A stretch of 38,896 nt of DNA from Candidatus Moraniibacteriota bacterium (GTDB taxonomy: Bacteria; Patescibacteriota; Minisyncoccia; Moranbacterales; UBA1568), in contig JAQTRS010000001.1 of assembly GCA_028711705.1 (NCBI GenBank), forward strand, positions 162,761-201,656, written 5' to 3'. Within the stretch, counting starts at the first letter, position 1; each line of letters begins with the position of its first letter. Shown one piece after another: positions 27,047 to 34,921 of the stretch. The notes beneath the pieces were generated by a model that saw nothing but the letters and a program-made list of their open reading frames with translations, did no database searches and had not been told where the DNA came from. The position numbers and the translations under genes were made by a program.

Positions 27047-27475
27047 CTACAACAAGCTGCTCTGCTTCGAAGCATTATCGAGCGCATGATTCACCATGGC
27101 ATCCGCGCGCTTGTTCTGCTCCCTTGGTACATGCGTGAACGTCACCTTGCCGAAATCGAGCATCTCATTCCATATCTCCATGAACAATTTCTGGATGCGC
27201 TCCTCCTTGATCTTGTAGATATGGTTCAATTGCCTCACCGCAAGCTCCGAGTCCATATACATATCCACGTGCACCTTTTTTGATTTCTCCTTCCCGATCA
27301 AGGCCCTGATCTTCTGCAAGGCGAACAAGATAGCCCCGTACTCTGCATCATTATTGGTCTTGTGCCCGATACACTCGCCATATTCCTTGTTGAGCGTTTC
27401 GATATACACGCCGATCGCCGCATCCCCGGGATTGCCGCGGGAACCCCCATCCGTAAACACCACTATTTTTTCCAT
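27047..27475 (-). CDS. Ribonuclease HI family protein
   Basis: A 142-residue RNase H fold. The catalytic acidic residues are Asp9 (FTDGGSRGNPG), Glu45 (NNDAEYGA), Asp75 (MYMDSELAV) and Asp125 (NKRADAMVN), so the DEDD set is complete. It resembles the archaeal/ST0753-like short RNase HI group in lacking the basic protrusion of the E. coli enzyme. It removes RNA from RNA-DNA hybrids. The promoter lies about 30 bp upstream, and the exporter operon begins 45 bp downstream. Confidence 0.94.
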   Translation of the reverse strand: MEKIVVFTDGGSRGNPGDAAIGVYIETLNKEYGECIGHKTNNDAEYGAILFALQKIRALIGKEKSKKVHVDMYMDSELAVRQLNHIYKIKEERIQKLFMEIWNEMLDFGKVTFTHVPREQNKRADAMVNHALDNASKQSSLL

Positions 27476-28260: not shown

Positions 28261-29850
28261 TCAGCTGCCGAGCAAGCCGAGTTTTTTCAAACGGGCCTGC
28301 GCGCCACTGATCGGCCGATCAAGCGTTTCAGCGATTTCCGAGAGCGGGACATCCTCATAGAAAAGCGCCTTAAGCCTCGCTTCTTCCTTGGCATCCCATT
28401 TCCTCGATTTCGCCGCCTTTTGCTTACCCGGCTTTTTCAAAACCTCCTCTTTTTCGGATACTCCCTGCAAAGATTTCTTGATGCCCTGCAGAAGGGAACT
28501 TCCCATCGGCATCGGGTCGGTCCACTGCCCGCCGCACAACCGGACAAAGTCTTTCTGTCGCTTGAGGATATCCTTCTGTGCGAGTTCCTCATACATTTTG
28601 TGAGCCGTATCGGATTGCTCGCGGAACTCGATATCCTGTTTCAAAATTTCCGGACTGACCCGGAATGCCTGATCATTGACACCCAAAAGATGCACGCCCG
28701 AAAGGGATCGCACGCGAGAGAGCGCCACATACCCCTGACCGAACTCGAATGTCCGCGACAGATCCATCACCGCCGCATCCATACTCATCCCCTGGCTCTT
28801 ATGGATAGTGATCGCCCAAGCGAGGCGCAGCGGTATCTGCATGATCCGTGCCAAAACCTCGCCCTGCTCTTCGATCGCCCATTCCATCGGCTTGGCCGTA
28901 AGCACCGTTTCGTCACGCAGCATCACCACCGGGCAACGGCTCTCATCATCGAAACCGATAACGGTGCCCAGCGTCCCGTTCACGAATCCTGCATTGGGAT
29001 TGTTCTTAGTAAACATGACCGCGGAGCCCTCCTTAAGATCCAATCGTTCCGGAGAAAGGCAACCACGCTTAAGCGCCTCCACCAGCCTCTCCGGTCCTCG
29101 ATCCGCCATCAAAAATGAACGCACCTTGTTATCAAGCTTCGCCAATTCCTTGGCATTGATCGTATCGACATCGGCATTGTGCGAAAAAAGCCTCGTCACA
29201 TCGGTCGGGATTTCCTCCATGGTCAACAGGCAGCTCCTCATCCGCTCGAAGTGCTGCTCGCCGAATTCGTCCCGACGCATCGCCGAAAGGATTTCCAAAA
29301 ATTTCTTATCTTCCTGACGATGCTGCTCCGTCAGATAGCAGACGGTCGGATTCATCACCCGCCACGCGACGGAAGAAAACGAAAAGACCGATTTCATCTC
29401 TTTTTTCGATACCGAAACCGGAGGTAGCTGAAAAAAGTCCCCCACGAAGACCACCTGCATCCCGCCGAACGGCTGCGCGGATTTCTTGACCCGCCGGCAG
29501 ATCCGCTCGACATTGGAAAGCGTCTCGCCATCGATCATCGAGACCTCGTCCACGATCAGCACCTTCGTCTTCTTGATACGCGCGCTAATATAGCGGCTCT
29601 TGGCGATATCCGCGACATCCTCATCGGTCAGGGAATACATCACCCCGATGCCGCTCCACGAATGCAGCGTCATCCCATGGATATGCGTCGCCGCGATGCC
29701 GGTCGATGCCGTGATGGCCGGCTCGATGCCGTGCGCACGCAAATACGCCACATACTGATTGATCGTATGCGTCTTCCCTGCCCCGGGTTCTCCTGTCAAA
29801 AAAACATTGACCCCCGTCTTCAAAATGTCCAATGCTTCTTTTTGCGTCAT
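28261..29850 (-). CDS. Pif1-like SF1B DNA helicase with C-terminal HTH-like domain
   Basis: A 529-residue helicase. Walker A GEPGAGKT (20-27), Walker B VLIVDEVSM, motif III FVGDFFQLPPV, the LTEQHRQ arginine-finger region, and the late motif ITIHKSQGMSMDAAVMDL with GYVALSRVRS are all Pif1/RecD2-like. These enzymes move 5' to 3' on single-stranded DNA and unwind duplexes, G-quadruplexes and RNA-DNA hybrids. The last 55 residues (WDAKEEARLKALFYEDVPLS through ARLKKLGLL) look like a Myb/SANT-type helix-turn-helix, probably for DNA binding. A consensus-like promoter lies just upstream. Confidence 0.93.
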   Translation of the reverse strand: MTQKEALDILKTGVNVFLTGEPGAGKTHTINQYVAYLRAHGIEPAITASTGIAATHIHGMTLHSWSGIGVMYSLTDEDVADIAKSRYISARIKKTKVLIVDEVSMIDGETLSNVERICRRVKKSAQPFGGMQVVFVGDFFQLPPVSVSKKEMKSVFSFSSVAWRVMNPTVCYLTEQHRQEDKKFLEILSAMRRDEFGEQHFERMRSCLLTMEEIPTDVTRLFSHNADVDTINAKELAKLDNKVRSFLMADRGPERLVEALKRGCLSPERLDLKEGSAVMFTKNNPNAGFVNGTLGTVIGFDDESRCPVVMLRDETVLTAKPMEWAIEEQGEVLARIMQIPLRLAWAITIHKSQGMSMDAAVMDLSRTFEFGQGYVALSRVRSLSGVHLLGVNDQAFRVSPEILKQDIEFREQSDTAHKMYEELAQKDILKRQKDFVRLCGGQWTDPMPMGSSLLQGIKKSLQGVSEKEEVLKKPGKQKAAKSRKWDAKEEARLKALFYEDVPLSEIAETLDRPISGAQARLKKLGLLGS

Positions 29851-31539: not shown

Positions 31540-33255
31540 CTAATCCCGCATCCGCATATCGATCAATTTCAATTGTGTGGTCGTCTTGCCGTTCCAGGTG
31601 TTCTCTTCCAACTGGAAGACGACATCCACCTTTTGGCCGGCAGCCAAATCAGGGAATTTCGTGCCCAGATTGAACCCGATCGCATCGAAGACCCGCTGCA
31701 TTGCATCATCGGAACGCAGGACGAGCTTGAGATGCTTCTCACCATTGCCCACGGTACGCACGGATTGCACGATCATATCTTCGAGCAGAAAGACCGGCTC
31801 GCGGTTCCCTTCCCCGAACGGCATCATCTTCATGATTTCGCTCACCAGCTGCGGCGTGATCTGGAACGGCGAAAGCTTCATGTCGATCAAGATTTCTGGC
31901 TCAACCACGATACCCTCCAATTTTTTCTCGATAATCCCGTTGAGCTTCTCATAGAAAGCCTCCAGGTTCTCATTCTTGATCGTCAGTCCCGCCGCCTGCG
32001 AATGCCCGCCGAATTTCACGAGCAACTCGCCGCATTCCTCGATAGCATCGATGATATTGACCGAAGGGATGCTGCGGAACGAGCCCTGGCTTTCGTGCTC
32101 ACCTTTCTGAAAGACGGCCGTCGGCCTATTGAGTTCATGCGCGATACGCCCTGCCACCAAACCGACGATACCCAAAGGATAATGCTCGCTCACGGCGAAG
32201 ATGAATTTCTTATCGGCATACATTTCCTCGGCCACCTTGCGCACCTGATCGGTGGTCTGGGTACTGATCTTCTGGCGTGCGACATTGTTGGCCTCGATTT
32301 CCAAAGCTAAGCCCCGAGCCATTGCCCGGTCCTCGCACATCAAAAGCTCATGCGCTGCCTGAGCATGCGCCATACGTCCCGCCGCATTGATACGCGGCGC
32401 GATCTGGAATCCGATTGTCCGAGAATCTGGCACGTGATTTTCATCGATAGGAATCTTGCCCACCGTAAACATTTCCTGAAACCCGATGCGCCTCGTCTTG
32501 GACAATACGATAAGTCCGTACTTCACCATCACGCGGTTCTCACCGATCAGCGGCATACAATCCGCCACCGTCCCAACAGCCGCCACATCCAAGAACCACT
32601 TCAGGTGTTCCACATTCTCCGGCAAAAAGGTCGTATACAGCGCCTGCGCCACCTTGAACACCGTCCCGACGGCGCACAATCCCAAAAACGGGTATCCCGA
32701 ATCCGTCATCTGCGCATTGATGATCGCGTAAGCCTTCGGCAATACCTCCGGCACATGATGGTGATCGATAATGATCACATCCATCCCGAGTTTATTGGCA
32801 GCATCCACCTCTTTGACATTGGTCATGCCGCAATCCGTCGTCATCACGAGCATCACGCCGTCCGCTTTGAAAACATCCAGAGCGTTCATATGCAGGCCAT
32901 GCCCTTCGGTATTCTTGTCGGGAATATATATGGACACCGGAATATCCAGCGCTCCTAAAACCATACGCAGCAGCGCCGACGACGTCACGCCGTCCACATC
33001 GAAATCGCCGAACACGCCGACGCGCTCGCCATCCTCTTTTGCCTTCCGGATGCGCTCGGTCACTTTCGACATCTGCACGAACAAGAACGGGTCATGCAAA
33101 TCGCTTGCATAATCAGGATTGAAAAAACGCCGTATCGATTCTTCATCCGTCACGCCGCGGGATTGCAACAGGGCGGAAGTGACGGGATGCAGTTTCCCGT
33201 CGGAAACCGCTTCACTGAGCTCATTCGCCTCGGACTGTACTTTCCATACCGCCAT
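31540..33255 (-). CDS. recJ: Single-stranded-DNA-specific exonuclease RecJ
   Basis: About 571 residues, a DHH/DHHA1 phosphoesterase that degrades single-stranded DNA 5' to 3' in recombination and repair. Motif I is VFGDFDVDGVTSSALL, motif III is the DHH of VIIIDHHHVPE, then the DHHA1 region (NRPTAVFQKGEHESQGSFRS, GGHSQAAG), and the C-terminal OB-fold domain. The start is set at the internal ATG before AVWKVQS, because the 25 extra codons upstream have no RecJ likeness and contain a possible -10 (TATACT). Length fits the family. Confidence 0.95.
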   Translation of the reverse strand: MAVWKVQSEANELSEAVSDGKLHPVTSALLQSRGVTDEESIRRFFNPDYASDLHDPFLFVQMSKVTERIRKAKEDGERVGVFGDFDVDGVTSSALLRMVLGALDIPVSIYIPDKNTEGHGLHMNALDVFKADGVMLVMTTDCGMTNVKEVDAANKLGMDVIIIDHHHVPEVLPKAYAIINAQMTDSGYPFLGLCAVGTVFKVAQALYTTFLPENVEHLKWFLDVAAVGTVADCMPLIGENRVMVKYGLIVLSKTRRIGFQEMFTVGKIPIDENHVPDSRTIGFQIAPRINAAGRMAHAQAAHELLMCEDRAMARGLALEIEANNVARQKISTQTTDQVRKVAEEMYADKKFIFAVSEHYPLGIVGLVAGRIAHELNRPTAVFQKGEHESQGSFRSIPSVNIIDAIEECGELLVKFGGHSQAAGLTIKNENLEAFYEKLNGIIEKKLEGIVVEPEILIDMKLSPFQITPQLVSEIMKMMPFGEGNREPVFLLEDMIVQSVRTVGNGEKHLKLVLRSDDAMQRVFDAIGFNLGTKFPDLAAGQKVDVVFQLEENTWNGKTTTQLKLIDMRMRD

Positions 33256-33343
33256 ACAGATGTTGTTTAGAGTATAATAATCCACGCAAAGCCTTTCCTC
33301 TTCGCGCTCAAAAAAACGCCTCGGATCCACAGGATGCTGCTGG

Positions 33344-33895
33344 CTACACGCAGATCAGCTTCGCTTCGAATGTTCGCGAATGAGCATCGGTCACAGACAA
33401 TTTGAGCGCCAATTGCTGCCCACCATTTTCATCGCACAAGAAATTCGCATTCAAACTGAAATCTTGGGCCAACTTCTGGGCATCCAAAGATCGCGGATCA
33501 ATGGATATGAAGTACTCGCTCGTCGTCAGAAGCGACCGTACGGTGCGGACCACGTCATTCACCGACATCATGCCCTGTACGATGAATTTCTTGACACCGA
33601 GTTCCATGGCATGCTTCTGATCCTCCTCGCGACCGAGGTGAGAAAAGAACACCACGGGAATAGAGGCGGTCACCACGCTTTTCTTGAGCGATTCCACCAG
33701 CGTGAATCCATCCATGCGAGGCATGACGATTCCGGTGAAAAGAACGTCCGGCGCCTTCTGATTGACCATTTCCAACGCTTCCAAACCATCCTTCGCCTCA
33801 CGCACCTCGAAACCGTCATTGCGGAACACTTCGGCATACAATCCGCGCATTTCAGCGTCGTCATCGGTTACGATGATACTGAATTTCTCTTTCAT
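33344..33895 (-). CDS. Degenerate (phosphorylation-deficient) response-regulator receiver protein
   Basis: A 183-residue protein with a CheY-like receiver (1-125) and a C-terminal extension of about 58 residues without a known DNA-binding motif. Acidic pocket residues Asp11, Asp12 and Asp13 are present, but the phosphoacceptor position is Gly55 (DVLFTGIVMP in place of the usual LDIMMP) and the conserved Lys is Gln107 (FIVQG in place of LVKP). The switch Ser85 remains. So it is unlikely to be phosphorylated in the standard way. The codon for Gly55 reads GGA. No histidine kinase is near. It lies between recJ and an L,D-transpeptidase gene. Confidence 0.9.
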   Translation of the reverse strand: MKEKFSIIVTDDDAEMRGLYAEVFRNDGFEVREAKDGLEALEMVNQKAPDVLFTGIVMPRMDGFTLVESLKKSVVTASIPVVFFSHLGREEDQKHAMELGVKKFIVQGMMSVNDVVRTVRSLLTTSEYFISIDPRSLDAQKLAQDFSLNANFLCDENGGQQLALKLSVTDAHSRTFEAKLICV

Positions 33896-33923
33896 AGGGT
33901 CGATTTAAAAATAATCTGCCCTC

Positions 33924-33929
33924 AGTATA
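33924..33929 (-). promoter_or_regulatory. -10 element of the receiver gene
   Basis: TATACT on the minus strand (TTGTATACTGAGG), 28 bp upstream of the ATG at 33895, just after the terminator of the L,D-transpeptidase. It resembles the other TATACTGA elements; a weak TTGTAG lies at the -35 position. Confidence 0.45.
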
Positions 33930-33933
33930 CAAG

Positions 33934-33981
33934 AAAAGACCCTTTCCTACAAAAAAAGGTCTTTTGCTCAATAAGCAAAAG
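33934..33981 (-). terminator. Terminator hairpins after the L,D-transpeptidase gene
   Basis: On the minus strand, CTTTTGCT pairs with AGCAAAAG (33961-33981), and is followed by ACCTTTTTTT. A second overlapping pair, AAAAGACC (33934-33941) with GGTCTTTT (33958-33965), can form instead. The two structures share the same bases and cannot exist at once. Confidence 0.8.
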
Positions 33982-33994
33982 GATACGATTTCGC

Positions 33995-34921
33995 TCAGTG
34001 CACGATAACCGGCGTGCCGATGTCGGCAAACTCCCACGCCCGCTGCGCTGCGCCCACTCCCAGACGGACACACCCGTGCGATACCGGTATCCCCAAATGA
34101 TTCGCTCCCTCCTTATACCCTCCCGGCCACTCGGGCAATTCATGAATGCCGAATTTTCCGCTCGGTGTGATCGCCATCCAGTACGGCATATACAAGCCAT
34201 ACTGCTTGGACCAGGGCTTTCTTGCCTTGTTCTCGATCTTGAATTGGCCCTTGGGCGTCTCCATCCCGCGCTTGCCCGAAGAAATCATATATGCATCGAG
34301 CGGCTTGCCGTCTTCGAACAAGACCATTACCTGGCTTACGAGCGACACATCGATATAGCGCCCCTGGAGTATCTTCGCTTCCGTATTGCGCTTCGCATCG
34401 GCAAGCTTGCGTAAGGTGGCCTGCTTGGCTCCCGTCAATTTCTCTGTGGGCGTCGTGAACCGGGATGTCGCAAGCAGGGTGTATGCGCTATCATCCATGC
34501 CGCGGCGCCTGATGAATGTTTTCAACGTATAGGGCGTCGACAGCGGCAAGGGTTCTTTTGGAAGCAGCTTGAACACTGTTTTTTCAGGATTGTTTTCATA
34601 CGCCACGGAAACGGGTGGATCGAGGCGGAAATCCACGAAAAAATCATCGGTCGTCGCATCGAAGCGCACCTCTATCGGGTCCTCGATATCCAGCAAAACC
34701 TCTGTCGCGCCATCAGCGGGGACTATCGATGCCACCTGGGGCACTTTCGCAGGCACTCCCGATATAAGAGGCTCCGAAGGCGCCAGCGCCTTCGGAGCCT
34801 CTATGACAGCAGCCTCCTTATGTGCGCTGACGGAGCCATCAAAAAAAGAAACCCCGAACATGCTGAACACAGCCGAAACGACAGAAACGACTCCGATTAC
34901 GAAGCGGGCACCCAAATGCAT
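33995..34921 (-). CDS. L,D-transpeptidase (YkuD) with Ig-like domain
   Basis: A 308-residue envelope enzyme that makes 3-3 (meso-DAP to meso-DAP) or protein-anchoring cross-links. An N-terminal hydrophobic segment (about 5-25) serves as signal anchor, a Pro/Ala linker follows (34-52), then a bacterial Ig-like domain (about 55-135, VPADGATEVLLDIEDPIEVRF split across the strands), then the YkuD domain with catalytic Cys284 in SHGCVRLG and the HELP...HLGIPVSHGC pattern. The signal region and Ig domain place the catalytic part outside the membrane. A striking perfect hairpin (34767-34802) lies in the linker-coding part. Confidence 0.92.
   Translation of the reverse strand: MHLGARFVIGVVSVVSAVFSMFGVSFFDGSVSAHKEAAVIEAPKALAPSEPLISGVPAKVPQVASIVPADGATEVLLDIEDPIEVRFDATTDDFFVDFRLDPPVSVAYENNPEKTVFKLLPKEPLPLSTPYTLKTFIRRRGMDDSAYTLLATSRFTTPTEKLTGAKQATLRKLADAKRNTEAKILQGRYIDVSLVSQVMVLFEDGKPLDAYMISSGKRGMETPKGQFKIENKARKPWSKQYGLYMPYWMAITPSGKFGIHELPEWPGGYKEGANHLGIPVSHGCVRLGVGAAQRAWEFADIGTPVIVH
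34767..34802. repeat. Perfect 16-bp inverted repeat inside the L,D-transpeptidase gene
   Basis: AGAGGCTCCGAAGGCG (34767-34782) and its exact complement (34787-34802) flank a 4-nt loop. It codes for the linker around residues 40-51 (APKALAPSEPL), so it is in the 5' part of the mRNA and might slow translation. Confidence 0.8.

Follow-up and report, generated by a model that had tools for sequence, protein, structure and literature searches.

A conserved pseudo-receiver family without the phosphoacceptor aspartate, encoded next to recJ in Patescibacteria

We analysed a stretch of 38,896 nt (the window) from a genome of Candidatus Moraniibacteriota, which amounts to 1.16 Mb in 21 contigs with a completeness of 99.5%. 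On the minus strand of the window, the gene reading from 33895 to 33344 (ATG start, TAG stop inside these coordinates) encodes a protein of 183 aa, and the 25 orthologues of the family could be aligned end to end. The opposite strand holds an open frame of 344 aa (33380–34414, plus strand), antisense to this gene and to part of the neighbouring YkuD gene, and calling by longest open reading frame picks it over the real gene. Residues 1–124 of the protein (33524–33895) form a receiver-fold domain of the (beta-alpha)5 type, as indicated by Pfam, AF2 and Foldseek. PF00072, the profile that the initial annotation of this sequence had proposed for a check, matched residues 7–106 at 9.6e-21 (74.5 bits compared to a cut-off of 30.2), which identifies the domain as a receiver. 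The AF2 model (pLDDT 87.8 overall) shows five strands and the helices in receiver order, and Foldseek matched it to RR468, PhoB and CheY at E-values of about 1e-9 to 1e-10. By sequence, the nearest solved chain is Thermotoga RR468 (PDB 4ja2, 5uht and 6rh1; 1.2e-17), for which Foldseek gave a TM-score by target length of 0.95–0.96 against the receiver part. RR468 has no C-terminal domain, unlike the protein investigated here. Its phosphoacceptor Asp53 is present and takes its phosphate from HK853.

Inspection of the active site showed that the phosphoacceptor Asp expected at the end of beta-3 is replaced by Gly55 (codon GGA, 33731–33733), and the conserved Lys at the end of beta-5 by Gln107 (codon CAG, 33575–33577); both substitutions had been read in the initial annotation and were confirmed by the sequence and the alignments. 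Two observations fix the Lys site: Phe104 at position K-3, which is kept in the window, and an alignment without gaps to receivers from related genomes, where the motif is DYxVKA or DYLIKS. Other features of a functional receiver are retained, namely the acidic pair Asp11-Asp12 (33860–33865) and Ser85 at the T site. Ser85 opens a SHLGRE loop (residues 85–90, 33626–33643), in which His86 occupies position T+1 and Arg89 follows. According to passages of a review on such proteins (PMC12632262), T+1 is usually Ala or Gly in true receivers. The 183-aa protein is a pseudo-receiver (PsR/ALR), that is, a receiver fold without key phosphotransfer residues, and its activity would be independent of Asp phosphorylation.

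Directly behind the pseudo-receiver gene lies recJ (31540–33330, minus strand), whose product is an ordinary RecJ with the Pfam domains DHH, DHHA1 and RecJ_OB. The likely true start of recJ is the ATG at 33255, 88 bases past the stop of the pseudo-receiver gene, and at this distance the two genes are likely co-transcribed. A YkuD gene is located upstream, and between it and the pseudo-receiver gene our scan found a terminator-like hairpin (33961–33981, minus strand). By count the hairpin scan is weak (3 found compared to 1.7 expected), and only this hairpin has a clean T-run. Because of its position, the pseudo-receiver gene probably opens a new transcript of its own. Farther downstream, a few genes behind recJ, a PIF1-like helicase gene (28261–29850, minus strand) precedes an RNase HI-like gene (27047–27475, minus strand), so that a run of nucleic-acid enzymes stands behind the pseudo-receiver gene in the window.

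The C-terminal extension (residues 126–183, 33347–33520) had initially been described as a tail without a recognisable DNA-binding motif. This description holds insofar as the profile search gave no Pfam match for these residues and hence no output domain of the OmpR, NarL or NtrC type, but it overlooked that the tail appears to be a degenerate zinc ribbon with a beta-alpha-beta-beta order of predicted elements. The pattern C-x2-C … F-V-C-P-x-C is found in the tail of most other families of the order, and of 112 homologues, 61 have two CxxC pairs (four Cys in 57 of them, five in 4). The protein of the window does not have two such knuckles; one Cys is left in each (Cys154 and Cys182). Most members of its family likewise keep one Cys of each pair, and in genus g3 these are missing as well. 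A four-Cys relative gave weak matches to several Pfam zinc-ribbon models, all of them below the cut-offs. The AF2 models of a four-Cys protein and of the window's protein both place strand-helix-strand-strand after the receiver, with lower confidence in the tail of the four-Cys model (block means 58–74), and the Foldseek lists for the full-length models were filled by receiver matches. The basis for the assignment thus consists of the Cys pattern, the weak Pfam matches and the predicted strands, and on this basis we read the tail as a decayed four-cysteine zinc ribbon that is intact in most of the order. The ancestral ribbon may have helped to contact nucleic acid or a partner, a role that we infer for the tail, and in the window's family, where most Cys are lost, the tail is likely held by packing alone.

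Within this family, a full-length copy was found in 25 of 28 genomes (the window's own counted), and the other 24 copies are 42–56% identical to the window's protein. Gly55 is invariant in all 25 orthologues, the acidic pair is kept in all of them, and the Lys site is occupied by Gln (6), Thr (9) or Arg (10). The reading frame is free of internal stops in every copy. Half of the invariant columns of the family alignment (13 of 26) fall in the pocket: D11, D12, G55, I56, M58, P59, D62, G63, S85, H86, G88, R89 and D92. For seven close pairs we calculated dN/dS; two gave no dS, and the other five gave 0.035, 0.019, 0.086, 0.095 and 0.043. These sequence comparisons show strong purifying selection on the gene and an old loss. 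Viewed in a single sequence, the losses of Lys, Cys and Asp resemble decay, but an assembly error or a decaying pseudogene is ruled out for practical purposes by Gly in 25 of 25 orthologues, dN/dS values of 0.02–0.10 in five pairs and open frames in all 25 copies.

We then extended the comparison to the order, in which 99 of 128 genomes matched at 1e-30. Two of them with frames of 131–132 aa (G065 and G066) were left out, and each of the remaining 97 genomes was counted with the one match of best coverage, leaving aside the extra matches in G107 and G063. The Asp site reads Gly in 95 of the 97 homologues, Ala in one (G032) and Asp in one (G033), and Lys is present in three (G096, G034 and G033) and absent from 94. 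The substitutions which the initial annotation had proposed to look for in related genomes are therefore the rule, and homologues with Asp and Lys, which it had named as evidence against its reading, are not what the sister genomes carry. Its statement that the acidic pocket is kept extends to the order as well, with the two residues retained in 95 and 93 of the 97 homologues. In the SHLGR loop, S85 is found in 95, H86 in 94, G88 in 94 and R89 in 93 homologues, and Phe104 is almost invariant. The G033 homologue (L217:2619–3203, plus strand) counts against a strictly fixed Gly: Asp and Lys are present, the acidic pair is changed to Gln-Pro, and the gene still adjoins recJ. Judged by its sequence, with the acidic pair lost, this homologue too falls short of a simple functional receiver; it is a candidate for the study of reversal. 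A response regulator that functions via phosphorylation of some residue elsewhere in the protein would be compatible with the retained acidic pair and the Ser at the T site, but we consider it very improbable, given that Asp is absent from 96 and Lys from 94 of 97 homologues, that 94 carry a bulky His at T+1 and that the only homologue with Asp has no acidic pair.

Outside the order, the search of the class yielded 15 long matches and 3 short ones (G239, G198 and G178), and Gly is found in all 15 homologues from the other orders. Across the phylum we scanned 379 genomes, of which 48 matched at 1e-32, and read the best 30 of the 48 loci. Ten of these 30 loci matched at 1e-49 or better, and all ten carry T/S-G-I-x-M-P together with SHLGR; the next 20 loci, at 1e-34 to 1e-36, have Asp in every case. 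The family f135, which lies outside the class, still has Lys (VKG or IKG) with Gly already in place of Asp, which suggests that Asp went before Lys. In a FastTree phylogeny of the receiver part, all Gly pseudo-receivers group in a single clade that excludes the ordinary receivers; the support of this clade is only 0.67, and a single loss of Asp is therefore likely rather than proven. Taken as a whole, the sequence comparisons describe an old, maintained pseudo-receiver family of Patescibacteria, with a loss that is common to much of this group.

Pseudo-receivers are a known kind of protein. Passages of the review cited above put them at about 6% of bacterial receiver domains and describe a class that is recognised by PF00072 and has no phosphoacceptor, like the family studied here (PMC12632262). 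In about 80% of that class the second acidic position (DD2) is non-acidic according to the same passages (PMC12632262), whereas the window's family keeps the acidic pair, and it further differs in the near-fixation of Gly throughout an order, the His at T+1 and the link to recJ. A precedent for a receiver fold working without Asp phosphorylation is FrzS of Myxococcus xanthus, in which Ala replaces the Asp (PMC1974792) and which, as stated in the review, binds SgmX through its pseudo-receiver (PMC12632262). FrzS differs in that Ser replaces an Asp of the acidic pair and in its role in motility, and the passages of this paper considered here contain no mention of a recJ link or a zinc ribbon for FrzS (PMC1974792). 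A zinc-ribbon passage in PMC5847659 concerns another domain, TackOD1. Among the titles and abstract openings of the literature searched, none names a receiver or pseudo-receiver as a partner of recJ and none describes the window's family, and the combination of near-fixed Gly, His at T+1, acidic pair and recJ linkage was not found there.

The conservation of the pocket, which is the most conserved part of the protein, could also point to a sensor for a small ligand or a metal. In such a protein the emptied pocket (acidic pair, Ser85, His86 and Arg89) would take up a ligand such as a nucleotide or metal ion and thereby switch an output face, and recJ would be the target via expression or contact. 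Ligand-binding pseudo-receivers are known, and the review passages list ShkA, CikA, KaiA, JadR1 and RedZ (PMC12632262). However, in several of the known examples with a stated site the ligand sits on other faces (PMC12632262), and we regard a ligand sensor as unlikely.

Next, we investigated how far the arrangement seen in the window is shared. In 92 of the 97 genomes of the order, the pseudo-receiver gene is immediately followed by recJ in the same orientation. In three of the five others (G044, G041 and G069) the contig ends within 450 bases, and in two (G055 and G119) recJ is located on another contig, as it is in G141. More than 500 bases separate the two frames in 4 of the 92 pairs (G042, G043, G054 and G076), and across 91 genomes of the order the median distance from the pseudo-receiver stop to the likely recJ start is 75 bases. 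The pair was also found for 7 of the 15 homologues from the other orders of the class. Among the ten Gly loci of the phylum scan, recJ follows directly in six (two of them, G000 and G012, belong to the window's own family), in L315 a fragment of recJ lies about 1 kb behind, and the remaining three show none within 1.5 kb; among the 20 ordinary receivers in the best 30 of the 48 loci, none stands beside recJ. Outside the class, the pairing was seen in G402, G418, G470 and G522, which represent a family with a protein that has no zinc ribbon, and the recJ link is therefore a property of the receiver part. Upstream of the pair stands an ADP-forming acyl-CoA synthetase in many families and DnaJ in most of the window's family, and the pair stays together while the upstream gene changes between families.

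Two variant architectures were seen among the homologues. In f22, a family outside the order, two tandem-fused pseudo-receivers, both with Gly and SHLGR, are encoded just before recJ (L211:6071–7045, minus strand). In family f4 (L188, L189, L194–L199 and L190) the protein has an N-terminal extension of about 80–240 residues with a similar start, which is acidic and looks like low-complexity sequence; L188, the extended protein that was scanned, gave no Pfam domain besides the receiver.

A model in which the protein works with RecJ alone is challenged most strongly by genomes in which one of the two genes occurs without the other. We searched 22 genomes of the order that do not carry the pseudo-receiver gene (9 more were left out) and found recJ kept in 19 of them, from which it follows that RecJ works without the pseudo-receiver. 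Conversely, the search for recJ elsewhere in the genome, which left out G261, G184 and G159, gave no match at 1e-20 in four genomes with the pseudo-receiver gene (G130, G244, G154 and G328), so that RecJ cannot be its sole partner. Where recJ does not adjoin the pseudo-receiver gene, the neighbours are varied. In family f13 an RNase HI-like gene, similar in kind to the one farther downstream of recJ in the window, directly follows the pseudo-receiver gene in G130, G244 and G261 and lies 568 bases away in G184. A DEDDh exonuclease and RNase H1 come after the gene in G159, and a UvrD helicase does so in G385. A PF04308 RNase H-like gene lies directly upstream in G198 and G178 and about 0.9 kb upstream in G239. 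Neighbours other than nucleases are a TrwB-like ATPase and a trypsin-like peptidase in G141, a pterin dehydratase in G154, a DsbD-like protein in G328 and an inositol phosphatase in G502. In G373 the neighbours are short frames, one of which was scanned and gave no Pfam match.

Gene adjacency can reflect shared expression instead of contact, and the pseudo-receiver may have an unrelated task, for example in partnership with a canonical receiver or a histidine kinase, and share an ancient transcript with recJ by chance. The absence of the pair from part of the order, with recJ present in most of the searched genomes that have no pseudo-receiver gene, and the retention of the pseudo-receiver in genomes without a recJ match are both in line with this explanation. 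The genome has few two-component systems, as the initial annotation had supposed: we found 6 receiver matches in 5 open reading frames and 4 HisKA matches, 3 of them over the cut-off. However, the profile search found no HATPase_c match within the window, which rules out a partner histidine kinase beside the gene. In addition, the recJ link persists across families in which the genes upstream and downstream have been rearranged, it is seen again outside the class, and the neighbours that stand in place of recJ are in many cases likewise nucleases or a helicase. We therefore hold a mere neighbourhood in expression to be doubtful, although it is the best placed of the alternatives.

The explanation that we favour, with a probability of about 0.5, is a phosphorylation-independent pseudo-receiver that is most likely expressed together with recJ and binds RecJ, or the complex of RecJ with nucleic acid, as an accessory or regulatory factor. 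The face of the former active site would have been reshaped into a fixed binding surface composed of the acidic pair, Gly55, Ser85-His86, Arg89 and Phe104, and binding to RecJ would modulate the exonuclease. In lineages without an adjoining recJ, where the gene often stands beside other nucleases or a helicase, the module may serve those enzymes. The constitutive or protein-binding pseudo-receiver proposed in the initial annotation fits this picture, with Gly in nearly all homologues of the order and Lys in hardly any; what had escaped it were the loss shared among relatives, the recJ linkage and the decayed zinc ribbon.

The 2025 review describes the switching of bacterial pseudo-receivers as a mystery (PMC12632262). 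The near-fixed substitution, the conserved pocket and a candidate partner encoded by the next gene make this question testable with two proteins. A module that cannot be phosphorylated at this site was kept, nearly always adjoining recJ, across a large group of organisms with tiny genomes, which suggests that a signalling module became a fixed partner of DNA-processing enzymes. Going further, it is conceivable, and we advance it tentatively, that RecJ has in this protein a dedicated subunit of ancient origin, or that the protein serves enzymes of primer and gap processing (RecJ, RNase H, DEDDh exonuclease and UvrD) as a general adaptor, in either case derived from a phosphate-dead receiver of an early ancestor of Patescibacteria. 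If so, its zinc-ribbon arm would have come and gone, and it would be, to our knowledge, the first receiver-fold protein directly serving a DNA-repair exonuclease. A signalling fold would then have become a nuclease cofactor in small-genome organisms, in which an idle regulator would not persist.
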